Below are positions 11,570 through 60,040 of a DNA stretch of 64,000 bases, one piece after another. The stretch lies in contig NZ_LT906463.1 of the NCBI RefSeq assembly GCF_900186995.1, forward strand, positions 1,116,001-1,180,000, read 5' to 3'. Position 1 is the stretch's first letter. Every line of letters starts with the position of its first letter. Made by a program: the position numbers and the translations under genes. The notes below the pieces were generated by a model that was not told the DNA's origin, did not search any database, and was given only the letters and a program-made list of their open reading frames with translations. This DNA comes from Haemophilus pittmaniae (lineage in GTDB: Bacteria > Pseudomonadota > Gammaproteobacteria > Enterobacterales > Pasteurellaceae).

Positions 11570-11648
11570 TTTTTAAATCAATCCTAATAAAATCAATGGG
11601 TTACGTGCTATTTTTCAGAAAACTCTGGAAACTGACCGGGCGTTTAGT
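11570..11648 (-). repeat. Dispersed 3'-end element, copy 1
   Basis: An approximately 80-bp element containing TTGATTTTATTAG and AAACGCCC (minus orientation) lies between the ffh terminator and miaB. The CGCCC end faces the ffh 3' end. See the finding on the nine-copy family. Confidence 0.85.
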
Positions 11649-11649
11649 T

Positions 11650-11690
11650 AAAAAATTTTGCCCGCGTCAGAGTGGGCGCGGGCAAAAGTA
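11650..11690 (-). terminator. Intrinsic terminator of ffh
   Basis: GCCCGCG / CGCGGGC (11660-11683) forms a GC-rich stem followed on the minus strand by AAAATTTTTT. It lies 25 nt after the ffh stop, immediately before repeat copy 1. Confidence 0.85.
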
Positions 11691-11708
11691 TTTTCCGTCA
11701 GCACAGGG

Positions 11709-13097
11709 TTAGCGTTTAAACATCCCGCCAAGACCGCCTAATCCGCCCATGCCACCGCCCATCAGGCCTTGCATACCGCGCATCATTTTGGCCATGCCAC
11801 CTTTGCGCATTTTTTTCATCATGCGTTGCATTTCATCGAACTGTTTCAACAATTTGTTGACATCCTGCACTTGCGTACCGGAGCCCAAGGCAATACGACG
11901 ACGGCGAGAGCCTTTGATAATTTCCGGACGGGCACGTTCTTTTAGGGTCATGGAGTTGATGATTGCTTCCATTTTCAGGAACATTTTATCATCCACTTGA
12001 TTTTTAACGTGATCCGGCAGATTTTTCGCCCCCGGCAATTTTTCCAACATGGACATCATACCGCCCATTTTTTTCATTTCACGCAGCTGGTCGCGGAAAT
12101 CCTCTAAGGTGAAATCATCGCCTTTTTTGAATTTCTGCGCCATTTTTTCGGCTTTTTCTCTATCGACAGAACGTTCCAAGTCTTCGATCAAGGAAAGTAC
12201 ATCGCCCATACCTAAAATACGGGAAGCAACGCGATCCGGATGGAATGGTTCAAGGGCATCGGTTTTTTCACCTACCCCAAGGAATTTGATCGGTTTCCCG
12301 GTGATTTGACGAATTGACAAGGCCGCACCACCACGAGCATCACCATCGACTTTGGTTAAGATAACCCCGGTAAGCGGTAAGGCTTCATTGAAAGCTTTGG
12401 CCGTATTGGCGGCATCCTGACCGGTCATCGCATCCACGGTAAACAGGGTTTCGATTGGATTTAATGCAGCATGTACCTGCTTGATTTCCTCCATCATTTC
12501 GCCATCGACATGTAAACGACCCGCGGTATCGACGATAAGCACATCATAGAATTTTAGTTTTGCATTGGCCAATGCGGCTTTGACGATATCAACCGGTTTT
12601 TGCTGAACATCAGATGGGAAGAAATCCGCACCTACTGATTGGGCGAGGGTTTCTAATTGTTTAATCGCCGCCGGGCGGTAAACGTCGGCGGAAACAACCA
12701 AGACTTTCTTCTTTTGGCGTTCGCGTAGGAATTTGGCTAATTTCCCGACACTAGTGGTTTTACCCGCCCCTTGCAAACCGGCCATTAAAATGACTGCCGG
12801 TGGTTGAGTGGCCAGATTCAAGGTTTCATTGGCTTCACCCATCGCATGTTCTAATTGTTGGCGGACAATTTTTAGAAATTCCTGACCCGGTGTTAGGCTT
12901 TTGTTTACCTCTTCACCAAGTGCGCTTTCCTTCACTTTGGCGATAAAGTCGCGCACCACCGGCAAAGCAACGTCTGCTTCTAATAAAGCCATACGCACTT
13001 CGCGTAGGGTTTCTTTAATATTATCTTCCGTTAAGCGACCTTTCCCACTGATGTTGCGCAGGGTTTTAGAGAGGCGATCCGATAAATTTTCAAACAT
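11709..13097 (-). CDS. ffh: Signal recognition particle GTPase Ffh
   Basis: The SRP54 homologue binds 4.5S RNA and signal sequences and delivers ribosomes to FtsY. N-domain at 1-90; G-domain with GLQGAGKTTSVGKLA (G1), DTAGRLHVD (G3) and TKVDGDARGG (G4); then a methionine-rich M-domain from about 330, with MKKMGGMMSMLEKLPG and the RRRRIALGSGT RNA-binding region. The 462-residue length and the Gly/Met-rich tail are normal. It is divergent from ypjD, the same ffh-ypjD-corB arrangement as in enterobacteria. Confidence 0.98.
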   Translation of the reverse strand: MFENLSDRLSKTLRNISGKGRLTEDNIKETLREVRMALLEADVALPVVRDFIAKVKESALGEEVNKSLTPGQEFLKIVRQQLEHAMGEANETLNLATQPPAVILMAGLQGAGKTTSVGKLAKFLRERQKKKVLVVSADVYRPAAIKQLETLAQSVGADFFPSDVQQKPVDIVKAALANAKLKFYDVLIVDTAGRLHVDGEMMEEIKQVHAALNPIETLFTVDAMTGQDAANTAKAFNEALPLTGVILTKVDGDARGGAALSIRQITGKPIKFLGVGEKTDALEPFHPDRVASRILGMGDVLSLIEDLERSVDREKAEKMAQKFKKGDDFTLEDFRDQLREMKKMGGMMSMLEKLPGAKNLPDHVKNQVDDKMFLKMEAIINSMTLKERARPEIIKGSRRRRIALGSGTQVQDVNKLLKQFDEMQRMMKKMRKGGMAKMMRGMQGLMGGGMGGLGGLGGMFKR

Positions 13098-13235
13098 ATT
13101 TATTCCGTTTTGAGCTCAAAATTGCGCTGATTATACCGAAATTCCGTCATTTTTCATCAATTCCAAGAAAATTATGGCAGGCCTTGGAAAAGATAGGCTA
13201 GAATGGGCGAACCTTTATTCCTGAGATTGCTTATT

Positions 13236-14018
13236 ATGTGGTTTGCTATTCTTTCGATTATTTTTTATGTGGCGGCATTGTTATGGATCGTGCCGTTTTT
13301 ATTGTATGGTGGAAATGCTTCCAAGCATAAAACCGGACTGTTTCTTACTGCGTTTGCGGCCTTATTATGTCATTTGATTAGCATTATGCCGGTATTGGAA
13401 AATTTAGCGGAAGGACAGTCTTTCACCTTGTTGCAAATCGGTTCGTTAATGAGCGTAATCATTGCGCTGTTAGCTACGTTAGCCATGTTTTATGTATCGA
13501 CCATGTGGCTGGTGTTGCCGATTGTGTATGCCTTTACCATAGTTAATTTAATTGCTGCAACCTTTGTGCCGGGGCATATCATTTCATTATTAAGCCAAGA
13601 CAGTTCTATGCTATTTCATATTGGCTTATCCATTTTTACCTATGCGGTGTGTTTTATTGCCACATTGTATGCGGTGCAGTTTGTATGGCTAGATCGTCGT
13701 TTGAAGGCGCGTAAGCTGTCATTTTCTAATGCGGTACCGCCGTTGATGTTGGTGGAGCGACATTTCTTTTGTTTATTTGCCGCCGGTGAAGTCTTATTGA
13801 CCTGTACCCTGATTTCCGGCACCTATCATTTGCTACAAGCGGTGACTCTGGAAAATCTGCATAAAGCGATTTTTTCTTTTTTAGCTTGGATTCTATTCGG
13901 CGTGGCTTGTTTTGGCCGCTGGCGCTTGGGCTGGCGAGGAAAAAAGATGATTATTTATGCAATTTCAGGTATCATCTTGCTCACTATTGGCTATTTCGGT
14001 AGTCGTTTAATTGATTAA
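13236..14018 (+). CDS. ypjD: YpjD-type CcsA/HemX-family membrane protein
   Basis: An eight-helix inner-membrane protein of the cytochrome-c-assembly (CcsA/HemX-like) family. The start at ATG 13236 (MWFAILSIIFYVAALLWIVPF) begins directly with the first membrane helix; the in-frame ATG at 13203 would add an unconserved prefix. Residues HIGLSIFTYAVCFIATLYAVQF and the conserved histidines fit E. coli YpjD. The exact function is not established. It precedes corB, as in E. coli. An uptake-like ACAAGCGGT lies at 13835. Confidence 0.88.
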   Translation: MWFAILSIIFYVAALLWIVPFLLYGGNASKHKTGLFLTAFAALLCHLISIMPVLENLAEGQSFTLLQIGSLMSVIIALLATLAMFYVSTMWLVLPIVYAFTIVNLIAATFVPGHIISLLSQDSSMLFHIGLSIFTYAVCFIATLYAVQFVWLDRRLKARKLSFSNAVPPLMLVERHFFCLFAAGEVLLTCTLISGTYHLLQAVTLENLHKAIFSFLAWILFGVACFGRWRLGWRGKKMIIYAISGIILLTIGYFGSRLID

Positions 14019-14035
14019 ACATCAGTTGTAAGCAT

Positions 14036-14062
14036 AAGGCGAACCAGGGTTCGCCTTTTGTT
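14036..14062 (+). terminator. Terminator after ypjD
   Basis: AAGGCGAACC and GGTTCGCCTT form a compact hairpin followed by TTGTT, 17 nt after the ypjD stop. Confidence 0.7.
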
Positions 14063-14118
14063 ATCGGGGCAATGCCCTAGTGCATTTGCCGATTATTTAC
14101 CAACAAAAGGATTTCCTC

Positions 14119-15384
14119 TTGGACAGTATCCCCCTTAGTACGTTATTTATCATTCTTATTGCCTGTTTGGTGATTTCTGCTTATTTCTCCGGTTCCGAAA
14201 CGGGACTGCTTTCCCTCAATAAATACCGCTTGCGCTTTCTCAGTGGGCAGGGGAATCGTGGTGCGCAAAAAGCCGAAAAATTGTTGGAAAAACCCGATAC
14301 CTTGTTAAGCTTTATCTTAATTTTCAATAACTTGGTAAATATTATGGCCTCCTCCTTGGCCACCATTATCGGGATGCGCCTATATGGTGATGCAGGGGTG
14401 GCGATTGCTACCGGTGCGCTGACTTTTGTGATGTTGCTATTTTCTGAAATTTTCCCGAAAACCGTTGCCGCGATGCATCCGGAAAAGGTGTCATTTATTT
14501 CCAGCCATGTGTTGACGGTAGTGATTAAGATTTTCTATCCGATCGTTTTAGCAATGAATATTTTAACCAAATCCCTAATGCGGATGGTCGGGCTGAAGCC
14601 GGAAATGCAACAGCAGGTAATTAGTAGCGAAGAGTTGCGTTCTATCGTAACCGAAGCCGGTGCAGCGACGCCGGATGAACAGCATCCGCAAATGTTGCTA
14701 TCCATTTTGGATATGGAAAATGTGACGGTGGACGATATTATGGTGCCGCGCAACGAAATCGGTGGGATCGATATTGATGATGATTGGAAGGCCATTATGC
14801 GCCAGCTCAATCATGCCGCCCACAACCGTATTGTGCTTTATAAGGGCAGCATGGATGAAAATGTACTTGGGATTTTACGCGTGCGGGAAGCATTCCGTTT
14901 GCTATTGGAAAAAAATGAATTTACCAAGGAAACCTTAATCCGCGCTGCCGATGAAGTCTATTTCGTCCCTGAAGGCACGGCGTTAAAAACACAATTGGCT
15001 AATTTCCGAGCCAATAAAGAGCGTTTAGGGTTAGTCGTAGATGAGTATGGTGACATCAAAGGTCTGATTACGCTTGAAGATATTTTGGAGGAAATTGTTG
15101 GTGATTTCACCACATCAAACGCACCGACTATTGAGGAGGAAGTTACCCAACAATCGGACGGTTCCATGATTATTGAAGGTTCTACCAATCTACGTGATTT
15201 GAACAAAATGTTCGGTTGGAATTTGGATACGGAAGATGCTCGTACTTTTAATGGTTATATTTTGGAACATTTGGAAGATATTCCAAACGAAGGCACCGTA
15301 TGCGAAATTGACGGATTACAAATTACCATTTTAGAAGTGGCCGATAATATGATTAAACAGGCAAAAGTGGTAAAAATAGCCTGA
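14119..15384 (+). CDS. corB: CNNM/CorB-family transporter-associated protein (HlyC/CorC type)
   Basis: A 421-residue membrane protein with an N-terminal CNNM domain (DUF21; three or four helices, SAYFSGSETGLLSLNKYRLR), two CBS domains (about 190-310) and a CorC/HlyC C-terminal domain (GTVCEIDGLQITILEV). The family is linked to Mg2+/Co2+ efflux or homeostasis. I choose a TTG start at 14119, which has AAAGGA 8 nt upstream and matches E. coli YfjD/CorB length; the ATG at 14080 has no clear ribosome-binding site and overlaps the ypjD terminator region. Confidence 0.88.
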   Translation: MDSIPLSTLFIILIACLVISAYFSGSETGLLSLNKYRLRFLSGQGNRGAQKAEKLLEKPDTLLSFILIFNNLVNIMASSLATIIGMRLYGDAGVAIATGALTFVMLLFSEIFPKTVAAMHPEKVSFISSHVLTVVIKIFYPIVLAMNILTKSLMRMVGLKPEMQQQVISSEELRSIVTEAGAATPDEQHPQMLLSILDMENVTVDDIMVPRNEIGGIDIDDDWKAIMRQLNHAAHNRIVLYKGSMDENVLGILRVREAFRLLLEKNEFTKETLIRAADEVYFVPEGTALKTQLANFRANKERLGLVVDEYGDIKGLITLEDILEEIVGDFTTSNAPTIEEEVTQQSDGSMIIEGSTNLRDLNKMFGWNLDTEDARTFNGYILEHLEDIPNEGTVCEIDGLQITILEVADNMIKQAKVVKIA

Positions 15385-15391
15385 TTTTTGG

Positions 15392-15471
15392 GTTTTTAAA
15401 TCAACTCCTTATAAATCAATAGGTTAGCTGTTAAAATTTAAAAAACTCTGAAAAACAAAGCCGCGTTTGGA
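15392..15471 (-). repeat. Dispersed 3'-end element, copy 2 (degenerate)
   Basis: The minus orientation contains CAGAGTTTTT, CTATTGATTTATAAGGAGTTG and TTTAAAAA segments that align with the other copies. The CGCCC end is degraded to AAACGCGG. It sits between corB and the convergent NCS2 permease gene. Confidence 0.7.
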
Positions 15472-15490
15472 GACAAACACGGCTTTTATT
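15457..15490 (+). terminator. Intrinsic terminator of corB
   Basis: AAAGCCGCGTTTG and CAAACACGGCTTTT form a stem with a GAGA loop, followed by TATTTTGG. It overlaps the end of repeat copy 2. Confidence 0.85.
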
Positions 15491-15501
15491 TTGGTTAAAA
15501 T

Positions 15502-15526
15502 AAAAACGCCCTAATGGGCGTTTTAT
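15502..15526 (-). terminator. Terminator of the NCS2 permease gene
   Basis: AAAACGCCC / GGGCGTTTT is a perfect 9-bp stem with a 4-nt loop; T-rich sequence follows on the minus strand. The arm resembles the CGCCC terminus of the dispersed element. Confidence 0.8.
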
Positions 15527-15533
15527 GCTTGCT

Positions 15534-16847
15534 TTAGTCGTTTTCTACCGATTCGGTCTTATCTTGTGGCAGAACCAAATTGAGGATTAAGGCCAACAAG
15601 GAACCAACGGTGATACCCGAACCTAATACTTCCTTAAAGAAATGTGGCAGTTTGTCGAGTAATTCCGGACGGGTAGTGACCGCTAAACCACAGCCGATGG
15701 AGATCGCAATAATCAAGCCATTACGTTTGCTGCGAGCCACCTTATCCAACATTTGAATACCCGCGGCAATGATCATAGCGAACATCATTAGTCCTGCACC
15801 GCCCAATACCGGCAACGGAATTGAGACGATCAATGCACCGAATACCGGGAAGAGTCCGGCTAAGGCGAGAAGTACGCCGGTTAATGCCACCACATGACGG
15901 CTGGCAACGCCGGTGAGGGAAATCACGCCGATATTTTGTGAGAAAGATGAGAATGGTGTGGTCGACATAATGGCCGCCAAGGCAGACCCCAAACCATCGG
16001 CTAATACGCCGCCGCGTAAGTGTTTACCGGTGATTTCCGTTTGTGTGGCATTCCCCAGCGCCAAGAAGTTACCGCTAGATTCCACGATAGTCACTAAATA
16101 GGCAATCGACATTCCGATAATCCCGGAAATTGGGAAGGATAGGCCAAAATGTAATGGTTGAGGGATAGCGAAGACTTGTGCCGCATGTACACCTTCAAAA
16201 CTTACCCAACCCATAGCTAGGCACACCACATAGCCAGTCATCATTCCAATGACGATGGCGGCAGCGGAGAAAATGCCTTTTCCCCATTGCACTAATGTCA
16301 CCACAATGATTAAAACAAAGCTGGCCATCATCAGGTTTTCCGGGGTGGCGTAGTTGGCATCTCCGCGTTGACCACCGGCAAACCAGTCAACAGCAACCGG
16401 AATTAGGCTGAGACCAATCATCATGACTACGGTACCGGTGACGATGGGTGGGAATAGTTTACGAATGTAAGGCATAAAGAAGCTACCGATAATCATCACT
16501 AAGGAGCCGACTAAGGAGGCGCCTAAAATACCGGAAATGCCATATTCACTAAAACCGATGGCTAATGCCGCGGCAACGAAGGTAAAGCTGGTTCCCATCA
16601 CGCTTGGTAGGCGAATTCCAACAGGCCCCAAGCCTTTACATTGAATGATGGTGACTACGCCGGAAATCAGGAGGGCGGCGTTGACGAGAGTAACCGTATC
16701 GGCGGTGGGGAGTTTGAGTACGTTACCGATAACCAAGGGCACAGCGATGATACCGCCGAGGGCAGCCAGGAGGTGTTGAGCGGCTAAAAGTAGGCTTAAA
16801 CCGAAGGGTGGTTTGTCTTCCACCGTATAAAGCAGGTTGTTGTTCAT
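15534..16847 (-). CDS. NCS2-family xanthine/uracil-type permease
   Basis: A 437-residue, roughly 12-14-helix nucleobase:cation symporter. Family signatures are QHLLAALGG near residue 24, TIVESSGNFLALG and SSFSQNIGVISLTGVASR. The QNIGV motif and ESSGNFLA segment are closer to the purine (xanthine/urate; XanP/UacT-like) branch than to UraA, which is encoded separately at 35.4 kb. The substrate cannot be fixed from sequence alone. It is a single gene with its own terminator. Confidence 0.85.
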   Translation of the reverse strand: MNNNLLYTVEDKPPFGLSLLLAAQHLLAALGGIIAVPLVIGNVLKLPTADTVTLVNAALLISGVVTIIQCKGLGPVGIRLPSVMGTSFTFVAAALAIGFSEYGISGILGASLVGSLVMIIGSFFMPYIRKLFPPIVTGTVVMMIGLSLIPVAVDWFAGGQRGDANYATPENLMMASFVLIIVVTLVQWGKGIFSAAAIVIGMMTGYVVCLAMGWVSFEGVHAAQVFAIPQPLHFGLSFPISGIIGMSIAYLVTIVESSGNFLALGNATQTEITGKHLRGGVLADGLGSALAAIMSTTPFSSFSQNIGVISLTGVASRHVVALTGVLLALAGLFPVFGALIVSIPLPVLGGAGLMMFAMIIAAGIQMLDKVARSKRNGLIIAISIGCGLAVTTRPELLDKLPHFFKEVLGSGITVGSLLALILNLVLPQDKTESVEND

Positions 16848-16922
16848 GAAGGTTCCTCATTTTTAAAGTGGGCGGATTATACGCATTTGTCCGCCTTTAG
16901 GCAAACGATTGCTAAAAAGTTT

Positions 16923-17001
16923 GTTTTTAAGTCAATGTCAATAAAATCAATGGGTTATATTCTATTTTCGGAAAAACTTTTATTTTCGAGGGGGCATTTT
17001 T
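16923..17001 (-). repeat. Dispersed 3'-end element, copy 3
   Basis: It carries CCCATTGATTTTATTG and AAAGTTTTTCC (minus orientation) with a slightly altered CGCCC end (ATGCCCCC). It lies between the sodA terminator and the permease start, with the GCCC end facing sodA. Confidence 0.8.
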
Positions 17002-17038
17002 ATGGGGGAAGGAGGGGAATGGGAACTACAAGTAAAAG

Positions 17039-17064
17039 AAAAGGCGGTCGAAACCGCCTTTAGC
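17039..17064 (-). terminator. Intrinsic terminator of sodA
   Basis: AAAGGCGGT / ACCGCCTTT around TCG(A) forms a stem followed on the minus strand by TTCTTTT, 15 nt after the sodA stop. Confidence 0.82.
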
Positions 17065-17078
17065 ATGTATATTGGAGC

Positions 17079-17732: not shown

Positions 17733-17761
17733 AATATTCGTTCCTCTATTTTATGAGTGAA

Positions 17762-17784
17762 GCTCCATGGAAAGTCCGTGGAGC
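17762..17784 (-). other. Hairpin in the sodA 5' leader
   Basis: GCTCCATGG and CCGTGGAGC pair (9 bp, including one G-U) across a 5-nt loop, about 30 nt upstream of the sodA start. It has no T-run. A role in mRNA stability or translation is possible but unproven. Confidence 0.4.
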
Positions 17785-26011: not shown

Positions 26012-26050
26012 AAAAACGGCAGCGCTAATAAATTGCGCTGCCGTTTTTGT
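26012..26050 (+). terminator. Intrinsic terminator of the lipoprotein gene
   Basis: AAAACGGCAGCGC / GCGCTGCCGTTTT with a 9-nt loop, followed by TTGTTTTT. The A-run on the other side makes it potentially bidirectional for rlmM. Confidence 0.9.
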
Positions 26051-26128
26051 TTTTTACTTAATGCTAATAAAATCAATGATTTACGCGCTGTTTTGGTAAA
26101 AGCTTTGAAATCCGATAGGGCGTTTTAA
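26050..26128 (-). repeat. Dispersed 3'-end element, copy 4
   Basis: In minus orientation it starts TTAAAACGCCC and contains TCATTGATTTTATTAG. Its CGCCC end supplies the TAA stop codon of rlmM (26125-26127). Confidence 0.88.
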
Positions 26129-27213
26129 GAATTCAACAAGCGAATATGCACAGTGATTTCTTCGCGATCGTGATAAAGCTGCTTGGCCTGTAAACGGAAG
26201 GGAATTTCCGCATTTTGCAGACGGTCGCGTAGTAAATCAAAACAACGTTGCACTTCCAAGTAGCGTTTTTTCATCGGTAGTTTCAAGTTAAAAATAGTTT
26301 CCCGACACCAACCATTGACTAACCATTTGGCAATTAGCTCGGCAATGCGAATTGGTTGTTCCACCATATCGCAAACCAACCAATCAATTTGCTGACGTTT
26401 GGGCGGTTGAAACTTAAAACCATCCTCAGGGCAATGTTCAATACGCCCGGTTTCATGCAAACTATCCGCCATTTTGCCGTGATCTACCGCATAAACAAAT
26501 AGCCCACGTTTTACCAACTGATAGGTCCAGCCGCCTGGACAGGCTCCTAAATCCACACCACGCATATTTTCATTAAGCCGTTTGGCTTCTTCTTGGCGAG
26601 GGATAAAGGTTAAAATTGCTTCTTCCAATTTTAAGGTAGAGCGGCTTGGCGCTTCGGCCGGGAACTTCAGACGCGGAATGCCCATAAAGTAAGGTGCATG
26701 ATTATCAGCATAGGAATAACCCACATAGCAGGCATTGGATGCGATAAAGAAAACATGCAGAACCATACCTTGGTGCGGTAGGCCTTTTAACCAACCTTGA
26801 TTCTTTAAGCGTTGGCGCAACGGCACCGTGAGTTTACGGCAGAGAGTAGATAGCTCTTTAGCCTCATTGGTATCGGCGGTTTCCAACCAAAGCTCGCTGG
26901 CTTTTTGCAGATTGAGGCGTTGATGGAGCACTTGATACTGCGCCAAAATTGGACTGATGCGATCCGTTGGATCGAGATTTTGTAGCAAATCACTGACGAC
27001 AATCAGTTGGCGGATAAAAATCAATTCGTTAAAAGGTAATTGACGGGCCAATTGATCGGCCTCGCCGGGTTGATAGCATTCAAAAATCACATAAGCGCTA
27101 TTATCGATTACGCGAGCAAAACCAAAAACACCTAGTTCGGCGGCTTTAGCGTTAATTTCTGCTGCGGCTTCTTTTTCAAAACCACTGCGGCAATAAAGGG
27201 CTAATTTATTCAT
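26125..27213 (-). CDS. rlmM: 23S rRNA 2'-O-ribose C2498 methyltransferase
   Basis: A 362-residue SAM-dependent methyltransferase with an N-terminal THUMP-like domain and a C-terminal Rossmann domain. The SAM site [15 protein letters not shown], the catalytic-type segment [11 protein letters not shown] and the K in [10 protein letters not shown] fit RlmM/YgdE. It overlaps the gcvA 3' end by 8 nt. Its stop codon lies inside repeat copy 4. Confidence 0.96.
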
Positions 27214-28188: not shown

Positions 28189-28217
28189 TTGTCGGAGCAC
28201 TTCCTTATCCCTACAAT
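28189..28217 (+). promoter_or_regulatory. Predicted GcvB promoter
   Basis: TTGTCG (28189-28194) and TACAAT (28212-28217) are separated by 17 bp. A start near 28224 coincides with the 5' arm of the first GcvB stem-loop. It is divergent from gcvA, so GcvA may act here. Confidence 0.6.
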
Positions 28218-28223
28218 GCGCGC

Positions 28224-28400
28224 ATACTTTAGGTTGATTCTTATGTGTTAATGAATTTCAGACTTAAGTATGATGTTGTGTTTGCATATAGTTCGGGCAA
28301 CCGAACGGGAGTAACCTCTTGTTACTCTTCTTACTTCCTGTATATTATTTTAAACCTTTTGGTTAAACGTCACATTTTCACGAATGTGGCGTTTTTTTTT
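28224..28400 (+). ncRNA. gcvB: GcvB small regulatory RNA
   Basis: No ORF fills the 440 bp between gcvA and ilvE. The plus strand contains the GcvB hallmarks: a 5' stem-loop (ATACTTTAG with CTTAAGTAT), the GU-rich seed GATGTTGTGTTTGCATAT (R1-like), a second hairpin (GAGTAACCTCTTGTTACTC), the conserved CTTCTTACTTCCTGTATAT segment and a final terminator (CGTCACATT/AATGTGGCG plus a T-run). GcvB pairs with many amino-acid transport and synthesis mRNAs with Hfq. The 5' end is inferred from the promoter and the stem. The divergent gcvA is the expected partner. Confidence 0.9.
28366..28400 (+). terminator. Rho-independent terminator of GcvB
   Basis: CGTCACATT pairs with AATGTGGCG (one G-U) across a 6-nt loop, followed by ten T residues. 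Confidence 0.92.
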
Positions 28401-31163: not shown

Positions 31164-31379
31164 TTAGCATTTCCGCAAAAAAAGTGCGACTGTCGAAAAA
31201 ACCTCCGTTTCCCGATTTTCCCTACGCATAAATGCCTTGTTGAGGGGGAAATGGCAAATTCCCCTTTGCACCCCGAACGCTTTGTGCCAAAATTGTGGCG
31301 TTTTTATAAAATGCCCGGTAGCGTTAGGGGCACTTCTTGAACGCGTTGTAGTGAATTCGGCGATTTCTTCGTTTTTAAA

Positions 31380-31452
31380 CAACTTCTAATAAAATCAATG
31401 ACTTAGCTCTTATTTTTGATAAAACTCGAAAAAATGCGATGGCGTTTTCGTG
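31380..31452 (-). repeat. Dispersed 3'-end element, copy 5
   Basis: In minus orientation it contains AAAACGCCA, CGAGTTTTATC and AGTCATTGATTTTATTAG. It lies between the divergent tRNA cluster and the metB-like gene. It is the only copy whose CGCC end faces a gene's 5' side. Confidence 0.85.
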
Positions 31453-36723: not shown

Positions 36724-37425
36724 ATGAAGTTTATTGTGCCTCAACAGCTTTCCCTGCCCATTCAACAAATTGACAGCGACACTTTGGCGAATTTTGATGG
36801 AGCCAATAATGCGCTATTGCTTAATTCCTTACAGCAAAAAGCATCAGACCAGCACTTTTTCTACTTGTGGGGCGCAGCCGGTACCGGAAAAACCCATTTA
36901 TTACGTGGGCTCAGCAACGATTATTTAAATCAGGGGCTGTCTGCAATTTATGTGCCCTTGAGTAAATCGCGTTATTTTTCGCCGGCGGTATTGGATAATT
37001 TAGAAAACCAACAGCTGGTTTGTTTGGATGATGTACAGCAGGTAGTTGGGCAGAGTGATTGGGAAATTGCGCTCTTTGATCTATTTAACCGTATCAAAGC
37101 TAATCAGCAAACCCGTTTATTGGTAGCAGCCGATTGTTCGCCAAATGCCTTGCCGGTGCAATTGCCGGATTTAGCATCCAGACTGAAATGGGGCGAGGCT
37201 TACCAATTAATCCCGCTCAGCGATGCACAAAAACTGGCTTGGCTACAGCAAAATGCCCACCAACGCGGCATTGTATTGCCGGAAGAAACCGCCCATTTTC
37301 TATTTAATCGCCTGGATCGCGATATGGCCACACTCAAAGCGACACTCGAGCAACTTGATCAAGCCTCTTTGCAGGCCAAACGCAATCTCACCATTCCCTT
37401 CGTGAAGTCTATTTTGGCGCTTTAA
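36724..37425 (+). CDS. hda: DnaA regulatory inactivator Hda
   Basis: A 233-residue AAA+ protein related to DnaA domain III. With the beta clamp it promotes hydrolysis of DnaA-ATP after initiation. Visible are an N-terminal clamp-binding-type motif (QQLSLPI), Walker A GAAGTGKTHLL, Walker B VCLDDVQ and a sensor-2 region in RDMATLKATLEQLD. The ribosome-binding site is weak. Its TAA stop (37423-37425) lies inside the TTTAAACGCCCC end of repeat copy 6. Confidence 0.94.
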   Translation: MKFIVPQQLSLPIQQIDSDTLANFDGANNALLLNSLQQKASDQHFFYLWGAAGTGKTHLLRGLSNDYLNQGLSAIYVPLSKSRYFSPAVLDNLENQQLVCLDDVQQVVGQSDWEIALFDLFNRIKANQQTRLLVAADCSPNALPVQLPDLASRLKWGEAYQLIPLSDAQKLAWLQQNAHQRGIVLPEETAHFLFNRLDRDMATLKATLEQLDQASLQAKRNLTIPFVKSILAL

Positions 37426-37500
37426 ACGCCCCTTCAAAATCAAGAGTTTTATCAAAAATCAACTGTAAGTTATTGATTTTATTGGTATTCACCTAAAAAT
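37421..37500 (+). repeat. Dispersed 3'-end element, copy 6
   Basis: It begins TTTAAACGCCCC and contains AGTTTTATC and GTTATTGATTTTATTGG. It supplies the hda stop codon and fills the hda-yhhQ convergent gap. Confidence 0.9.
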
Positions 37501-38193
37501 CTATTTCCCGGCCAATTTTTGCAAACGCACCAGTAAAACATTCAATAAAACGCCATAAGCAGGCACGAATAGCAACATACCAATTAATAATTTAAACAAA
37601 TAATCGACAAACCCCAATTGCATCCAATTTTCAGCCATAAAAGGATCGCTACTTTGATAGAAGGCAACGCCAAAGAACATAAGCGTATCGGCAGCTGAAC
37701 CAAAAATCATCGAACAACTCGGTGCTACCCACCAAATTGCCAATTGGCGTAATTTATTGAATACCAACACATCCAGTAATTGACCGAATACATAAGCGCA
37801 GAAGCTGGCGAAGGCGATACGGAAAACGAATAGATTAAATTCCTCAAGTACGCCCAGCCCTTGATATTGTCCATTGGAAAAAATGACCGATATTACATAG
37901 CTAACGATTAATGCCGGCAACATCACCCAATGAATAATGCGGCGAGCACTGGTTGCCCCAAAAATCCGCACAGTTAAATCGGTAGCCAAGAAAATAAATG
38001 GAAAAGTTAAGGTGCCCCAGGTGCTATGAAAAGAGAAATCCTCAAGGGCACCAAAACGTTGTAGCGGCACATGGATTTCAAAGGGAATTTGCACAAAATA
38101 ATTACTGGCTGCAATGATAAAAATGTGGAAAAAACAAAGAATAAACAGCGCATTACGCTTTTGTTGATGGGTAAAAATAAATGTTTTTTGCAT
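37501..38193 (-). CDS. yhhQ: Queuosine precursor transporter (YhhQ/QueT family)
   Basis: A 230-residue, six-helix inner-membrane protein of the DUF165/vitamin-transporter-like family that imports preQ0/preQ1. FHSTWGTLTFPFIFLATDLTVRIFG and SYVISVIFSNG closely match E. coli YhhQ. The start at ATG 38193 (MQKTFIFTHQQKR) matches homologues; the frame's earlier ATG (38262) would run through the preQ1 riboswitch. The regulatory RNA upstream supports the function. Confidence 0.93.
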   Translation of the reverse strand: MQKTFIFTHQQKRNALFILCFFHIFIIAASNYFVQIPFEIHVPLQRFGALEDFSFHSTWGTLTFPFIFLATDLTVRIFGATSARRIIHWVMLPALIVSYVISVIFSNGQYQGLGVLEEFNLFVFRIAFASFCAYVFGQLLDVLVFNKLRQLAIWWVAPSCSMIFGSAADTLMFFGVAFYQSSDPFMAENWMQLGFVDYLFKLLIGMLLFVPAYGVLLNVLLVRLQKLAGK

Positions 38194-41969: not shown

Positions 41970-42050
41970 ATTTAAACGCCCTAATGAACATCAGAGTTTT
42001 TCCAAAAATAGAATGTAAGCTATTGATTTTATTAGAGTTGATTTTAAAAT
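41970..42050 (+). repeat. Dispersed 3'-end element, copy 7
   Basis: It starts TTTAAACGCCC and contains CAGAGTTTTTCC and GCTATTGATTTTATTAG. It fills the convergent gap between the gor terminator and tesB, with the CGCCC end towards gor. Confidence 0.9.
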
Positions 42051-42052
42051 GG

Positions 42053-49184: not shown

Positions 49185-49490
49185 ATGAGCCAAATCCATA
49201 TTCAAATTGCCTATGCGCTGCCGGATCGTTATTACTTAAAGTCCTTTCAGGTGGAAGAAGGCACAATGCTACAAACAGCGATTTTACAATCGGGTATTTT
49301 GAGTCAATTCAGCGAAATTGATTTACGCCAGAATAAAGTCGGCATTTATGCGCGCCCGGCCAAGTTGACCGATCCCTTGAAGGATGGCGATCGCGTTGAG
49401 ATTTATCGACCACTACTGGCGGATCCGAAGGAAATTCGTCGTAAACGAGCTACCGAGCAAGCGAAAGCTGCGAAGGAAAAGTCCCTCTAA
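49185..49490 (+). CDS. rnfH: RnfH-family protein (ubiquitin-like)
   Basis: A 101-residue protein of the RnfH/UPF0125 family with a beta-grasp fold. IHIQIAYALPDRYYLKSFQVEEGTMLQTAILQSGIL and DRVEIYRPLLADPKEIRRKRA are typical. In many gamma-proteobacteria it follows ratA; here ratA is absent nearby. The start is ATG 49185 (MSQIHIQ); the frame opens 39 nt earlier. Its TAA stop lies inside the TAAACGCCCC end of repeat copy 8. Confidence 0.9.
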   Translation: MSQIHIQIAYALPDRYYLKSFQVEEGTMLQTAILQSGILSQFSEIDLRQNKVGIYARPAKLTDPLKDGDRVEIYRPLLADPKEIRRKRATEQAKAAKEKSL

Positions 49491-49567
49491 ACGCCCCTAT
49501 GAAAATCAAAGTTTTGCTAAAAACCGATGCTAAGTCATTGATTTTATTAGGGTTGCTTTAAAAATAA
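49488..49567 (+). repeat. Dispersed 3'-end element, copy 8
   Basis: It starts TAAACGCCCC and has AAGTTTTGC and GTCATTGATTTTATTAG. The arms AAAATCAA and TTGATTTT pair perfectly. It supplies the rnfH stop codon and fills the gap to roxA. Confidence 0.92.
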
Positions 49568-49607
49568 AAATTTATCCATTTTTTCATTTGTTATCAAGGA
49601 GTTAACC

Positions 49608-52915: not shown

Positions 52916-52928
52916 GGGGGAGGTCTCT

Positions 52929-53756: not shown

Positions 53757-53768
53757 GATTGGGAGATA

Positions 53769-53796: not shown

Positions 53797-53801
53797 TTGC
53801 A

Positions 53802-54620
53802 TTATTGAGCGCTTCGCCAGTATGTTGCAAAACGGGGTTTACCGTTAGCGGTTAAGCCTCGATATTTGTAGGTAATACGACTACCAATAGGCGGTGGATT
53901 GGTTCTTTCCTGAAGATTAAAGCCAGAACCAATTTTAAATGTTCCCCGTTGATTCTCACAGGTAATTGAGCCTAGTACATTGGCAAATTGCCCCCTTCCT
54001 GGATGATGGGCGATAACAGTACATTCTTCATCATAAGTGGGTTTGAGTTTTAGAATTTGTTGACTTCGCTTGCGTTCATAAGGTGCTTCCGGATTTCTCA
54101 CAACGACACCTTCCCCACCTTTGTTTTCCACTTCTTTTAGAAATGCTTGTAGGTGGCTGTAATCTTTAATTGGAATTTGTTCAATGATTTCGATGTAAGG
54201 TGAGGGATTATCGGCTAAGTAATCCCGTAATTTTTGTAGTCTGTTTGGCAGATTACCGGGGGCATCGGGAACATCAAAAACCTGTAATTTAAGTTGTTCC
54301 CAGCCATCACCCTTAAAGGATTTAGTAATTGATGCAATTTTTTCAAATTGGTTTCGTCCACTCCATAGTTCTCCATCAATGGCAAAGGGAGGAAATTGTG
54401 CCGTAAAGTAGGCTGGTGGACTAAGGCGTTGGCCTTGTCGGCTGATTAACTCATCACCGGTCCAATATCCTCTTACACCATCAAGCTTTTCTGACATTAA
54501 CCAGCCTTCTACATTTTGATTTTGATAGGTGCCAAGTAACATTAACTCCGGATTTTGAGCTTGAACAAAGGGGGATGAAAGTGCGATAAGGCCGCCAAGT
54601 AAAAATAATCTGATTTGCAT
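53802..54620 (-). CDS. ATP-dependent DNA ligase with signal peptide
   Basis: A 272-residue minimal ATP-dependent ligase. After a Sec signal (MQIRLFLLGGLIALSSPFVQA) come the nucleotidyl lysine K45 in SEKLDGVRG, DGELW, EGVVVRNP and KLKPTYDEE, then an OB domain. H. influenzae encodes a homologous ligase; its secretion signal points to a periplasmic role, possibly on DNA entering during natural transformation (inference). The start is ATG 54620; the earlier ATG (54650) precedes the ribosome-binding site. Confidence 0.93.
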   Translation of the reverse strand: MQIRLFLLGGLIALSSPFVQAQNPELMLLGTYQNQNVEGWLMSEKLDGVRGYWTGDELISRQGQRLSPPAYFTAQFPPFAIDGELWSGRNQFEKIASITKSFKGDGWEQLKLQVFDVPDAPGNLPNRLQKLRDYLADNPSPYIEIIEQIPIKDYSHLQAFLKEVENKGGEGVVVRNPEAPYERKRSQQILKLKPTYDEECTVIAHHPGRGQFANVLGSITCENQRGTFKIGSGFNLQERTNPPPIGSRITYKYRGLTANGKPRFATYWRSAQ

Positions 54621-54792
54621 AATGTTCTCCTTTTGATTGCTGTAAAGCATAGGAAAAAGGTTTGTATTTTGAGAATGAAATGACTTTTTTTGCCTAAGGG
54701 ATCACAGATTTTATGAAATTAGTGAAGAAAACTGGATTATTAGAGTAGCCGACTATACAATGCGCCCGTTAAATTACCCAAAGGAGAAAACG

Positions 54793-55377
54793 ATGTATTT
54801 CGATCAAATTAAGGCGGAGCTTGTTGAAGCGCATAAGCTTTTGGAAACATTTATCAATGATGATAACAATATCAAATTGATTGAGCAGGCCGCGTTATTA
54901 ATTTCCGATAGTTTTAAAAATGGCGGAAAAGTACTTTCTTGTGGTAACGGTGGTTCCCATTGTGATGCGATGCACTTTGCTGAAGAGTTGACAGGGCGCT
55001 ATCGTGAAAATCGTCCAGGCTATCCGGCGATTGCAATTTCTGATGTGAGTCATTTAAGCTGTGTGAGTAATGATTTCGGTTATGATTATGTATTCTCACG
55101 TTATATCGAGGCGGTTGGAAAACCAGGAGATGTTTTGTTTGGTTTGTCCACTTCAGGAAACTCTAAAAACGTATTAAATGCAATTGAAGCCGCAAAAGCA
55201 AAAGGCATGAAAGTAATTGCTATGACCGGTAAAGATGGCGGTAAAATGGCAGGTTTAGCAGATGTTGAAATTCGAGTGCCACATTTTCGTTATGCGGATC
55301 GTACTCAAGAGATCCATATTAAAGTGATTCATATTTTGATGATGTTGATTGAATTTGAGATGGCGAAATCTGCATAG
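54793..55377 (+). CDS. gmhA: Sedoheptulose-7-phosphate isomerase
   Basis: A 194-residue SIS-domain isomerase that starts ADP-heptose synthesis for the lipooligosaccharide core. [28 protein letters not shown] and [23 protein letters not shown] are diagnostic. The start is ATG 54793 with AAGGAGAAAACG; the frame opens 33 nt earlier. A single gene with its own terminator. Confidence 0.97.
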
Positions 55378-55402
55378 ATAGCACATTGATTTTACTTTTT
55401 AG

Positions 55403-55433
55403 AAAAAATCCCAATGAATTTGGGATTTTTTTA
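55403..55433 (+). terminator. Intrinsic terminator of gmhA
   Basis: AAATCCCAA / TTGGGATTT with a TGAA-type loop, followed by a T-run. Confidence 0.88.
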
Positions 55434-55441
55434 TTTTCCCT

Positions 55442-55480
55442 ATTGCATAAATAATCATTAAACATTAATATTTATTCAGT
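55442..55480 (+). promoter_or_regulatory. Two ARG boxes (ArgR operator) upstream of artP
   Basis: Two 18-bp sites, 55442-55459 (TTGCATAAATAATCA core) and 55463-55480 (TTAATATTTATTCAG core), are exactly 3 bp apart, as in E. coli ArgR operators. Against WNTGAATWWWWATTCANW the boxes differ at two positions each. They end 24 bp before the artP start, so arginine-bound ArgR should repress the transporter. Confidence 0.78.
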
Positions 55481-55504
55481 GTTTCTATTTGGGTAGTTTT
55501 TCTA

Positions 55505-56236
55505 ATGGCAATTAGTGTAAAAAATTTAAATTTCTTCTATGGCAATAAGCAGGCATTGTTCGATATCAACTTGGATGCACAAGAAGGTGATACCGTCGTG
55601 TTATTGGGGCCGAGCGGTGCAGGTAAAAGTACTCTAATTCGAACTTTTAACTTATTAGAAGTCCCACAATCGGGTGAGTTGGCAATTGCTAATAATCACT
55701 TTGATTTATCTAATACTACGTCTAATCCAAAGGCTGTTCGTCAATTACGTCAGGATGTTGGAATGGTTTTCCAACAATATAATCTGTGGCCCCATTTAAC
55801 GGTATTGGAAAATTTGATTGAAGCGCCTAAAAAAGTATTAGGTATTTCCGATGAGGACGCTAAAAAAGAAGCATTGGAATTATTGAAAAGGTTACGTTTA
55901 GAAGAACATGCGGAGCGTTTCCCACTGCATTTGTCTGGTGGACAACAACAACGGGTAGCGATTGCGCGAGCTTTAATGATGAAACCGCAAGTTTTGTTAT
56001 TTGATGAACCGACCGCAGCGCTGGATCCGGAAATCACGGCTCAAGTTGTTGATATTATTCAAGAGTTGCAACAAACCGGAATTACTCAGGTTATTGTGAC
56101 CCATGAAGTAAATGTGGCACAGAAAGTGGCAAATAAAGTGGTTTATATGGAACAAGGCAAAATTGTTGAAATGGGCGGATCGGAATGCTTTGAACATCCT
56201 CAAACCGAACAATTTAAACAATACCTTTCACATTAA
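55505..56236 (+). CDS. artP: Arginine ABC transporter ATP-binding protein
   Basis: A 243-residue ABC ATPase: Walker [11 protein letters not shown]-loop [12 protein letters not shown], signature [14 protein letters not shown], Walker [15 protein letters not shown] and H-loop THE. It is the first gene of an artP-I-I-Q-M operon for arginine uptake behind two ARG boxes. Confidence 0.95.
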
Positions 56237-56267
56237 ATTAATTAAATAATATATAGGAAGGCACAAC

Positions 56268-56990
56268 ATGAAAAAATTATTATTAACCACGGTAATGATG
56301 GGGATAACTTTAGCGGCAAATGCTAAGGATATTATGTTTGCAACCGAGCCAAGCTACCCACCTTTTGAATTAACTAATGAAAAAAATGAATTAGTCGGTT
56401 TTGAAATTGATTTGGCCAATGCGATTTGCCAAAAAATTCAAGAGACTTGCCATTTTAAGAGTCAAAATTTTGATACGTTGATTCCGGGATTAAAACTTAA
56501 ACATTTTGATGCAGCGATGTCCGCGATTGATATTACCGAAGCTCGAGCAAAACATGTGTTGTTTTCCGATTCTTATTACGATAGTTCGGCCAGTTATATT
56601 GCTTTAAAAGGAAAATATGATTTAGCTACGGCTAAAGTAATCGGTGTGCAAACCGGTACAACTTTTCAGCAATATACGGCTAATGAAACCAAACAATATG
56701 AATCAAAATCTTATATTAATTTAAATGATGCTTTGCTTGATTTGAAAAATGGTCGAGTTGATATCATTTTTGGTGATACTGCGGTATTAGCCTATTTGAT
56801 AAAGGATGAGCCGAATATTCATTTTGTTGACGATAAAGTAACGAATAAAGAATATTTTGGCACTGGGTTAGGTATCGCATTTAATAAATCCTCAGGTGAG
56901 TTACGGGATAAGATCAACAAAGGTCTAGCTGAAGTAAAAGCTAGTGGGGAATACCAAAAAATTTACGATAAATGGATGACAATAAAGTAA
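56268..56990 (+). CDS. artI: Arginine-type periplasmic binding protein, first copy
   Basis: A 240-residue SBP family 3 protein with a signal peptide (AANA cleavage). [30 protein letters not shown] forms the start of the ligand pocket, with [20 protein letters not shown] and [19 protein letters not shown]. It is highly similar to the next gene, but it has diverged more from ordinary local codon use and is AT-richer. Both are tandem copies between artP and artQ. Confidence 0.92.
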
Positions 56991-57036
56991 TCCTTTTATT
57001 TAACAATAACTTATAGACTGAATAAGGACAAATTTT

Positions 57037-57756
57037 ATGAAAAAATTACTTTTAAGCGCGGTGTTGATGAGCTCCGCTTTTGCTGTGAATGCACAAGAAA
57101 TCACTTTTGCGATGGAGCCGAGCTACCCTCCATTCGAAACAACCAATGAAAAGGGTGAAATTGTTGGTTTTGATGTGGATGTAGCGAATGCTATTTGTAA
57201 GGAAATTCAAGCGACCTGTCATTTCAAAAGCCAAGCTTTTGATGCATTGATTCCAAGTCTAAAATCTAAACGCTTCGATGCTGCAATTTCTGCTATTGAT
57301 ATTACTGAAGCTCGTGCAAAACAAGTAGCATTTTCTAATGCATATTATGATAGTTCTGCAAGTTATGTTGCGTTAAAAGGAAAAGCGGATTTAGCTTCAG
57401 CAAAAACGGTTGGTGTTCAAAACGGAACAACCTTCCAACAATATACTGCTGCAGAAACCAAACAATATAATGCGAAATCCTACGCAAGCCTGCAAGATGC
57501 GATTTTGGACTTAAAAAATGGTCGTATTGATATCATCTTTGGGGATACCGCGGTATTAGCCGATATGATTTCAAAAGAAGCGGAAATTCAGTTTGTAGGT
57601 GATAAAGTGACCAATAAGCAATATTTTGGTAATGGCTTAGGTATTGCTGTGAATAAATCAAGCAAAGAGTTGCTCGAAAGCTTGAATAAAGGTTTAGAAA
57701 CCGTGAAAGCCAATGGCGAATACCAAAAAATCTACGATAAATGGATGACAAAATAA
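57037..57756 (+). CDS. artI: Arginine-type periplasmic binding protein, second copy
   Basis: A 239-residue SBP family 3 protein, tandem paralogue of the preceding gene. Signal peptide [35 protein letters not shown] and [19 protein letters not shown] match the first copy except at selected positions, some in the predicted pocket. Either copy could feed the same ArtQM permease; a difference in ligand (arginine versus lysine, ornithine or histidine) is possible. Confidence 0.93.
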
Positions 57757-57759
57757 TCT

Positions 57760-58431
57760 ATGTTTTATGATTATCTTACATTAATTGGACATGCAGCCCT
57801 AATGACCTTAGGGCTTGCTATTTGCTCGTTAATTGTCGGTTTATTGCTCAGTATTATTTTTACCGCCTTAGAAGCGAATAAATATGTGTTTATTGCAAAA
57901 CCAGCTTCTATTGCTATTGCTTTATTGCGTGGTTTACCGGAAATTTTAGTGGTTCTACTGATTTATTTTGGCTCAACCCAAATAGTAGAAATACTGACAG
58001 GCGAGTATATCGAATTCAGCGCTTTTGGTTGTGGTGTATTTGCATTATCTTTGATTTTTGCCTCTTATGCCTCGCAGACCTTGCGTGGAGCCATTCAGGC
58101 AATTCCAAAAGGCCAATGGGAATCCGGCGCAGCTTTAGGCCTAAGTCGCCCTTACACTTTCATTCACTTGATTATGCCACAAGTATGGAGACACGCTTTA
58201 CCAGGATTGAGTAATCAATGGTTGGTGTTGTTAAAAGATACTGCATTGGTTTCATTAATTGGTGTGGATGATTTAATGCGCCAAGCGGGCTATATCAATA
58301 CCAATACTCATGAGCCCTTTACTTGGTACGGCATTGTCGCATTGATTTATTTACTGATTACTTTAGTAAGCCAAGCTGGAATTCGTCAATTGGAAGTACG
58401 TTTTACTAAATTTGAACGGGGAGCCGAATAA
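57760..58431 (+). CDS. artQ: Arginine ABC transporter permease ArtQ
   Basis: A 223-residue polar-amino-acid permease with five helices and the ABC contact motif (GAIQAIPKGQWESGAALGLSRPYTFIHLIMPQVWR). It follows the second artI by 3 nt and its stop overlaps the artM start. Confidence 0.95.
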   Translation: MFYDYLTLIGHAALMTLGLAICSLIVGLLLSIIFTALEANKYVFIAKPASIAIALLRGLPEILVVLLIYFGSTQIVEILTGEYIEFSAFGCGVFALSLIFASYASQTLRGAIQAIPKGQWESGAALGLSRPYTFIHLIMPQVWRHALPGLSNQWLVLLKDTALVSLIGVDDLMRQAGYINTNTHEPFTWYGIVALIYLLITLVSQAGIRQLEVRFTKFERGAE

Positions 58432-59114
58432 TGTTCCAAGAGTATTTAGAAGTGATTGCTCAGGGCATCCCGACAAGTTTATTACTAACAGTAGTAGCGC
58501 TTTTTATTGCGTTTTTCTTGGCATTAGCACTAACTTTCCTGCTTTCTATCGGCAATAAGTGGGTGAAAGGAGCTGTCAATTTATACCTTGTTTTATTTAC
58601 GGGTACCCCACTTTTAGTACAATTTTTCTTAATTTATGCAGGACCAGGACAATTCAAATGGCTGGTGGATAGCCCATTTTGGGGTGTGTTCTCTAATGCT
58701 TGGTTCTGTGCTGCATTAGCTTTAGCATTGAATAGTGCAGCGTATTCAACCCAATTATTCCATGGCGCAGTAAAAGCGATCTCTAAAGGCCAGTGGGAAA
58801 GCTGCGCTGCGTTAGGTTTAAGCCGTATGCAAACCTTAAAAATTTTAATTCCTTATGCATTAAAACGCGCGCTACCTTCCTATACCAATGAGATTATCTT
58901 GGTATTTAAAGGTACGGCATTAGCTTCGACCATCACTATCATGGATATTATGGGATATGCCCGCCAACTTTATGGTACAGAATATGATGCCCTAACCATT
59001 TACGGCATTGCTGGTGGTATTTATTTGATTATTACCGGTATTGCTACACTGTTATTGCGTCAATTAGAAAACAAATTGTTGTCATTCGAACGTATCGACA
59101 GCGCAAAAGTATAA
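58431..59114 (+). CDS. artM: Arginine ABC transporter permease ArtM
   Basis: A 227-residue permease paralogous to ArtQ. The coupling helix motif GAVKAISKGQWESCAALGLSRMQTLKILIPYALKR contacts ArtP. It overlaps artQ by one base and ends the operon, with a terminator 17 nt later. Confidence 0.95.
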   Translation: MFQEYLEVIAQGIPTSLLLTVVALFIAFFLALALTFLLSIGNKWVKGAVNLYLVLFTGTPLLVQFFLIYAGPGQFKWLVDSPFWGVFSNAWFCAALALALNSAAYSTQLFHGAVKAISKGQWESCAALGLSRMQTLKILIPYALKRALPSYTNEIILVFKGTALASTITIMDIMGYARQLYGTEYDALTIYGIAGGIYLIITGIATLLLRQLENKLLSFERIDSAKV

Positions 59115-59131
59115 AACACCTTTAAACTTAG

Positions 59132-59170
59132 AAAAAAATCGGACAATTTAAAGATTGTCCGATTTTTTTA
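59132..59170 (+). terminator. Intrinsic terminator of the art operon
   Basis: AAATCGGACAATT / GATTGTCCGATTT (10 or more bp), followed by TTTTATT. Confidence 0.9.
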
Positions 59171-59232
59171 TTCGAAATTGACTTCTTTTATATTTATCAG
59201 ACCTATAATGCCAGAGTACTAAGGAGGAGCAT

Positions 59233-59943
59233 ATGAAGCCAATTTGTGTTGTTTTAACTGGGGCTGGTATCAGTGCTGAAAGTGGTATTCCTACTTTTAG
59301 AGCGGAAGATGGATTGTGGGCAGGACATAAAGTAGAAGAAGTTTGTACGCCTGAAGCCTTGCAAAAGAACCGTGCGAAAGTGCTAGATTTCTATAATCAA
59401 CGCCGTAAAAATGCAGCAGCAGCTAAGCCAAATGCTGCCCATCTCGCTTTAGTTGAGTTAGAAAAAAACTATGATGTGAGAATCATCACGCAAAATGTAG
59501 ATGATTTACATGAACGGGCGGGAAGCTCAAATGTTTTACATTTACATGGAGAATTGAATAAAGCCCGCAGTAGTTTTGATGAAAGCTATATCGTAGATTG
59601 TTTTGGCGATCAGAAATTGGAAGATAAAGATCCAAATGGGCATCCTATGCGTCCATATATTGTTTTTTTCGGTGAAATGGTGCCAATGTTAGAGCGTGCA
59701 GTGGATATCGTAGAACAAGCAGATGTGGTATTGGTAATTGGTACTTCTTTGCAAGTGTATCCTGCTAATGGCTTAGTTAATGAAGCCCCAAGAAAAGCTC
59801 CGATTTACTTGATCGATCCAAATCCCAATACAGGCTTTGTTCGTAAGCAAGTTATTGCAATCAGAGAAAAAGCGGGTGAGGGGGTGCCTAAAATAGTGGC
59901 CGAGCTGTTGGGAAAAATTCACGCTTATGGATATTCGCAATAA
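59233..59943 (+). CDS. cobB: CobB-type NAD-dependent deacylase lacking zinc cysteines
   Basis: A 236-residue sirtuin. TGAGISAESGIPTFR and TQNVDDLHERAGS bind NAD, the catalytic His is H105 in HLHGEL, and Y54/R57 in FYNQRR are the residues that favour succinyl or malonyl lysine in class III enzymes. In E. coli CobB the following module has two Cys pairs binding zinc; here the region (KARSSFDESYIVDCFGDQ...DKDPNGHPMRP) has one cysteine only (C123), so the zinc site is lost. GEMVPMLERA follows normally. It is probably still folded, but activity is uncertain. It is monocistronic. Confidence 0.9.
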   Translation: MKPICVVLTGAGISAESGIPTFRAEDGLWAGHKVEEVCTPEALQKNRAKVLDFYNQRRKNAAAAKPNAAHLALVELEKNYDVRIITQNVDDLHERAGSSNVLHLHGELNKARSSFDESYIVDCFGDQKLEDKDPNGHPMRPYIVFFGEMVPMLERAVDIVEQADVVLVIGTSLQVYPANGLVNEAPRKAPIYLIDPNPNTGFVRKQVIAIREKAGEGVPKIVAELLGKIHAYGYSQ

Positions 59944-59961
59944 GATGAATGATTACATGCG

Positions 59962-60040
59962 TTTTTAATATATATCTAATAAAATCAATAGCTTAGTTTG
60001 TATTTTTGCAAAAACTTTGTATTTCTTAGGGGCGTTTTAG
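59962..60040 (-). repeat. Dispersed 3'-end element, copy 9
   Basis: In minus orientation: CTAAAACGCCCC, AAAGTTTTTGC and GCTATTGATTTTATTAG. It supplies the TAA stop of the zinc-ribbon gene (60037-60039) and fills the convergent gap after cobB. Confidence 0.9.

Follow-up and report, generated by a model that had tools for sequence, protein, structure and literature searches.

The window analysed here, a 64,000-bp stretch at positions 1116001-1180000 of the single 2,181,355-base contig of the salivary bacterium Haemophilus pittmaniae, contains nine copies of a dispersed repeat of about 78-80 bp with a perfect consensus for integration host factor (IHF) near its centre. In keeping with the species name, the first 140 residues of one protein of this genome are 99% identical to a protein labelled H. 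pittmaniae. The nine elements named in the original prediction were all located. A sequence-only covariance model, built from a gap-free alignment of 38 copies (30 retrieved via an exact core, and eight of the nine window elements), finds every one of them, at 38.5-74.4 bits.

The repeat in the window and along the chromosome

Copy 1 (11566-11646, minus strand, 69.0 bits) carries at 11591-11603, on the same strand and at model positions 47-59, the sequence YAANNNNTTGATW, the IHF consensus. In the other copies this consensus is likewise on the strand of the element. Copy 2 (15390-15469, minus strand, 38.5 bits; consensus at 15414-15426), the most divergent of the window, is in a convergent gap, and its CGCCC end overlaps a terminator-like hairpin lying 67-103 bases past the stop at 15384. 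Copy 3 (16920-17001, minus strand, 63.0 bits) has its consensus at 16945-16957. Copy 4 (26046-26127, minus strand, 64.4 bits; consensus at 26071-26083), again in a convergent gap, lies directly against the stop codon of an RlmM-like gene (26125-27213, minus strand; Pfam). Copy 5 (31369-31449, minus strand, 65.8 bits; consensus at 31393-31405) has a tRNA cluster on one side and a cystathionine-gamma-synthase-like gene, presumably metB, on the other. The entire 75-bp convergent gap between the Hda-like and Vut_1 genes (Pfam) is occupied by copy 6 (37422-37503, plus strand, 63.7 bits; consensus at 37466-37478). Copy 7 (41972-42052, plus strand, 73.5 bits; consensus at 42016-42028) abuts the stop of the right-hand gene of a convergent gap, and copy 8 (49488-49568, plus strand, 74.4 bits; consensus at 49531-49543) overlaps an RnfH-family gene (Pfam) at its stop codon. 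Copy 9 (59959-60039, minus strand, 65.3 bits) has its consensus at 59983-59995.

Copy number was estimated from an evenly spaced 464-kb sample composed of the window and 20 evenly spaced 20-kb stretches. The model gave 77 matches there, 69 of which, at 77.0-37.3 bits, are copies of the element; the next score is 16.4 bits, and the eight matches at or below it were taken as noise. One copy per 6.7 kb extrapolates to about 320 genome-wide. Genome-wide, the exact 14-base core ATTGATTTTATTRG has 194 occurrences and the reversed sequence, used as a control, has none, so that the hundreds of copies originally predicted are borne out. In a model search of the same genome, all 150 sequences scored, out of 2557 candidates, were matches. 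Within the window, the core with at most two mismatches was found 13 times for 2.1 expected, and eight of these 13 are elements. Copies are evenly distributed along the chromosome (Kolmogorov-Smirnov p=0.69), yet one 80-kb stretch is empty. They show no replication-strand bias (101 versus 87; 188 of 194 copies with the exact core were counted, the replichore limits being a guess based on the GC skew of 21 places). Tandem arrays of four copies (L031, C1:1299079) and two copies (L032, C1:1419102) have a period of 91-94 bp, the spacing across all tandem pairs and arrays being 91-106 bp.

The model is spanned almost in full by 68 of the 69 sampled copies, the remaining one being cut by the edge of a stretch. 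No decayed or otherwise truncated copy was seen in the 464-kb sample, which is unusual among dispersed repeats. No description of the repeat was found in the open-licence papers searched. At the gathering score, Rfam gave five matches in the window, none of them on an element. A GcvB RNA (28208-28400) and a histidine operon leader (6594-6717) lie in the window, and a CRISPR repeat family match was seen at L128:5797-5832.

The anatomy of the element was read from the CGCCC end, in model positions, on the 68 sampled copies. It comprises AAACGCCC at positions 5-12, a three-base A/T block at 19-21, GTTTT at 27-31, AAAA at 36-39, TAA-N3-ATTGATTTTATTAG at 47-66, TT at 69-70 and TTTAAAAA at 73-80. 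The IHF consensus is perfect in all 68 of these copies and in 143/143 of a larger pool, about half of which was fetched via the exact core; the 31 pooled copies without the exact 14-mer still keep it. AACGC is present in 130, GTTTT in 113 and AAAA in 122 of the 143. Mean pairwise identity among pooled copies is only 69.5%, with many positions near random. Among 435 pairs of variable columns, 15 exceeded the null (one column-shuffle set), and since 13 of these 15 are at most three columns apart, there is no sign of subfamilies. Judged from these alignments, the conservation pattern is that of a selected protein-binding site and not of young copies of a single master.

Gene ends, 5S clusters and phased flanks

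Genes were called with a codon-usage caller that misses a few of them, and context was determined for 68 copies, the edge-cut one being dropped. Convergent gaps hold 29 copies, co-directional settings 16 and 14 according to orientation, and divergent gaps six, with three copies at edges. Counted by gap, the element occupies 28 of the 50 gaps between convergent genes, 27 of the 287 between co-directional genes and 6 of the 52 between divergent ones. Convergent gaps remain far more often occupied than co-directional ones when only gaps of at least 20 bp, net of the element, are considered (26/46 versus 27/188, p=1.4e-8) or of at least 60 bp net (19/30 versus 24/141). At the latter limit co-directional and divergent gaps do not differ (24/141 versus 6/49, p=0.50). 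The proposed preference for gene 3′ ends is therefore real and strong, with more than half of the convergent gaps occupied and clear enrichment downstream of genes. Within the sample, a gene 3′ end neighbours the CGCCC end in 45 of 66 cases and the opposite end in 43 of 67. Many copies directly adjoin a stop codon, which for 10 of 45 left-hand genes runs into the element by one or two bases; on the other side, convergent gaps commonly have a terminator-like hairpin.

The eight 5S genes of the genome form six clusters, presumed to be rRNA operons (a 23S gene was seen beside one), and the element lies beside 5S in all six. It begins about 100 bases past the 5S gene in four of them. In the two tandem-5S clusters (L135, C1:567525; L136, C1:1492222), a copy lies between the 5S genes, within a longer inverted repeat.

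The repeat was also observed in the signal-peptide region of filamentous-haemagglutinin-like genes (L132:7673-16057, minus strand; L132 near 2281; L019 near 1451), and was shown to be in frame in the first of these three. The relatives compared have, at the place of the repeat, a different stretch that is 2 to 7 residues shorter. Rickettsia palindromic elements are likewise intergenic repeats that also occur in frame inside a protein gene. The present element differs from them in being non-palindromic, and its in-gene copies were seen in a single adhesin-like family.

In the flanks of the repeat, A/T content rises and falls with a period of 10.5-10.75 bp (141 copies, two of the 143 being left out; null of 500 randomisations). 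On the right, peaks lie near positions 87, 97, 108, 119 and 129, and the amplitude is 3.25 against a null maximum of 1.51. On the left the oscillation is weaker (1.27 against 1.02). A terminator artefact was considered for the right flank and ruled out: phasing is still present when only the 96 copies with no right-hand hairpin detected are taken (3.15 against 1.37), and the first right peak is unlike a terminator A-tract because it is richer in T than in A.

Origin and relatives of the repeat

At the thresholds set, the model found no match in ten congeneric genomes, and the exact core occurs there one to three times per genome, versus 194 times in H. pittmaniae. In 140 genomes of the family, searched under stricter filtering and with scoring limited to 32 candidates in each, a single strong copy was found outside H. 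pittmaniae; 30 further genomes gave weak matches only (26.2 bits at most). The strong copy belongs to another genus and is embedded in his-operon DNA, which was probably transferred, as it is 93.8-96.5% identical to the his genes of the window. Between hisD and hisC, the window has an AT-rich open reading frame of 391 codons without Pfam match (3106-4281, minus strand); in the operon of the other genus, the repeat copy stands in its place.

Gap lengths suggest that a unit of about 78 bp was inserted into convergent gaps, since the median of 146.5 bp with the element becomes, minus 78 bp, 68.5 bp, equal to that of element-free convergent gaps. The corresponding median in five congeners is 50.5 bp. 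Orthologous empty sites yielded little. For the tRNA gap of copy 5, none of the four congeners compared carries the element, and the gap is about 137 bp longer in H. pittmaniae. One orthologous co-directional gap is longer here by 46 bp, not 78, and the 20 kb queried included several non-syntenic gaps.

A loose pattern recovered 52 stretches from viral contigs, and a position matrix recognised one of them (L184) as a real copy. This copy is close to the edge of a prophage-like contig, the first 241 bases of which are 99% identical to the genome studied here. The contig appears to derive from another isolate, because in the present genome that position is free of the prophage. Since copies of one genome are about 30% different from each other, their dispersal would predate the split between these isolates. 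The exact pattern had two matches in a database of genome contigs, both with wrong spacing, own-species records being perhaps outside that search. Spread by phages or plasmids was considered and set aside: blastn with one copy gave no match at E<=0.01 among 72,556 plasmid and 50,697 phage records.

A candidate DNA-topology site

The original prediction described the repeat as palindromic, with its CGCCC end facing the 3′ end of a gene in eight of nine copies, and proposed RNA roles (3′ untranslated region element, terminator, or small-RNA end). Position at gene 3′ ends agrees with such roles, as does the presence of the 3′ arm of a terminator-like hairpin within the CGCCC end in 9 of 141 copies. 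RNAalifold, however, proposed no consensus pair on 38 copies. The AAAATCA/TGATTTT arms can pair in 73% of cells, with two-sided change in none of seven pairs, so that compensatory changes are lacking. Of the nine window copies, one folds clearly better than its shuffles (z=-3.1; the others range from -1.6 to +0.9). Gene calls reduce the eight orientations to seven, and the co-directional split of 16 to 14 (p=0.86; the 14 include two in-gene copies) is that of random orientation; the separate hairpin common beside the element in convergent gaps also argues against a role in termination. Because there is neither conserved structure nor strand bias, we reject an RNA element, and consider one acting in termination or mRNA stability very improbable. 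Hardly more credible is a DNA uptake signal replacing a lost one, even though several observations favour it. The Haemophilus-type uptake sequence AAGTGCGGT has dropped to 205 copies here (four in the window), versus 1276-1481 in each of the ten congeners. In a 400-kb sample from five congeners it is present in 17 of 40 convergent gaps, as against 1 of 50 here, where the element takes 28, and congeners carry it in the tRNA/metB gap where the element lies nearby in H. pittmaniae. The element would thus share the convergent-gap niche of the Pasteurellaceae uptake signal, but that signal has a 9-bp core devoid of an IHF site and over half of its copies in genes (106 of 253 lay in gaps in the congener sample), whereas the element is almost confined to gaps, appears to have been added as a block of about 78 bp, and is present in few copies (about 320) for such a signal. 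Neither AAGTGCGGT nor ACAAGCGGT occurs in the element, as judged from aligned copies and base frequencies. H. pittmaniae thus shows both a loss of uptake sequences and a gain of the repeat, and the congeners show neither; we claim no causal link between the two.

Mobility without function is a serious rival. The repeat could be a parasite resembling miniature inverted-repeat transposable elements, requiring IHF for its transposition and found at gene 3′ ends because insertion there is harmless, a possibility that we nevertheless regard as doubtful. The prediction of a mobile element with a 3′-end preference stood in part: about 320 copies here versus no match in ten congeners, and the length added in convergent gaps, speak for it. 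So do the copies that lie within an adhesin-like gene, in its signal-peptide region, the tandem pairs and arrays, and the occurrence of either orientation near 3′ ends in co-directional gaps. Terminal inverted repeats and target-site duplications were not found: no end-to-end pairing was found in 38 copies, and the best of 1872 combinations of boundary and length gave three target-site duplications in 68 copies for 0.27 expected, which we do not take as a duplication. No autonomous relative with matching ends was found in the Y1 family, other transposase families not being searched. The single Y1 transposase (L076, C1:1700561), which lies between hsdS-like and hsdR-like restriction genes (named by inspection), is surrounded by its own, different repetitive extragenic palindromic (REP) sequences, GTAGGGTGGGC, and its 3.3-kb locus is devoid of the core of the element. 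Membership of the REP/RAYT system was ruled out by these unrelated REPs, a REP core being within 150 bp of the element in only 6 of 138 copies (three in-gene copies having been left out in addition to those excluded from the flank analysis); moreover, the element is not a GTAG-tagged palindrome and has no cognate Y1 transposase. Absence of decayed or truncated copies and of subfamilies, and conservation of one orthologous copy between isolates, are further points against a parasite. Convergent gaps are also occupied at 0.56, versus about 0.38 expected if their two 3′ ends were occupied independently and each as often as in co-directional gaps (derived from 21 of 101 co-directional gaps of at least 100 bp net).

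The nearest parallels are found among IHF-associated and gyrase-associated repeats. RIB/BIME-1 (RIP) elements of E. coli are described as intergenic repeats that lie 3′ of transcription units and have an IHF site at their centre (PMC2817692, PMC6639932). The H. pittmaniae repeat likewise carries a central IHF consensus, in 143 of 143 copies, at the ends of transcription units. It differs in sequence, is unlinked to the REPs of its own genome, and has no palindrome, whereas in RIB/BIME-1 two inverted REP palindromes surround the IHF part. The best reading by analogy is that the element works like RIB/BIME-1; lacking these palindromes, it is not a member. Correia elements of Neisseria are also reported to be dispersed and intergenic and able to bind IHF (PMC2649163); they share these traits, an IHF consensus standing for binding in our case, but have an inverted repeat, which the 38 copies lack. 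According to a review, repeated palindromic sequences found where heavily transcribed genes end are sites of HU with gyrase, and of IHF (PMC6639932), and gyrase cleavage has been reported to be enriched downstream of rRNA operons in E. coli, where the gyrase motif has flanks with a 10.75-bp periodicity (PMC6379681). BIME-2 and other strong gyrase sites resemble the element in being intergenic and in this phasing, clear in our right flank and weak in the left. The element differs from them in lacking REPs and having an IHF-type core, and gyrase binding is hypothetical here.

We favour, with about as much confidence as doubt, a double-stranded, IHF-centred element of about 78-80 bp, dispersed to some 320 places and kept as a DNA-topology site; probably it serves in the folding or supercoiling of DNA and not as an RNA signal. 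This reading is built on what was observed: the family, its IHF consensus, the phasing of its flanks, its location, the length added in convergent gaps and its non-detection in congeners. The element would have been copied on the lineage leading to H. pittmaniae and then retained where it landed. IHF would bind the invariant YAANNNNTTGATW and bend the DNA sharply, and the internal A-tracts, with the helically phased A/T of the flanks, may let about 160 bp wrap the complex. Positive supercoils accumulate both between convergent genes and next to 5S rRNA genes, the places of the element, and it may act there as a local topology site or barrier, possibly aiding gyrase.

Several points weigh against this proposal. 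The argument for IHF binding is the consensus itself, and the chance of meeting one within a 76-bp AT-rich consensus is about 1% by rough estimate. The wrap is deduced from the flanks, because the A/T profile of positions 5-116 has no 10.5-bp peak (peaks lie near 8 and 11.5, with a lesser one near 10); moreover, among the 45 copies that have a right-hand hairpin, the left flank is aperiodic (0.93, with 1.63 as the null maximum). Gyrase sites of E. coli are reported to correlate negatively with IHF sites (PMC6379681). The bias towards convergent gaps could reflect tolerance, as these gaps hold no promoters, and the six 5S clusters represent fewer independent events, since in part they are duplicates of one another. 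Net medians of co-directional gaps differ (161 bp with the element, 50 bp without), presumably because element-free gaps include many within operons. Conservation across isolates is seen at one locus.

The proposed topology site is present in over half of the sampled convergent gaps and beside every 5S cluster. We put forward, tentatively and as a rather unlikely extension, that a palindrome-free, IHF-centred gyrase or topology site spread to about 320 places, took over the niche of the uptake sequences of sister species and rewired chromosome folding within the genus. In E. coli, the roles of BIME and RIB elements are hard to separate, since IHF, gyrase, palindromes and transposase co-occur. 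With about 320 copies, an invariant IHF consensus, no palindrome and no copy detected in ten close relatives, the H. pittmaniae repeat allows a clean comparison, with and without the element, of chromosome topology, IHF binding and transcription ends.

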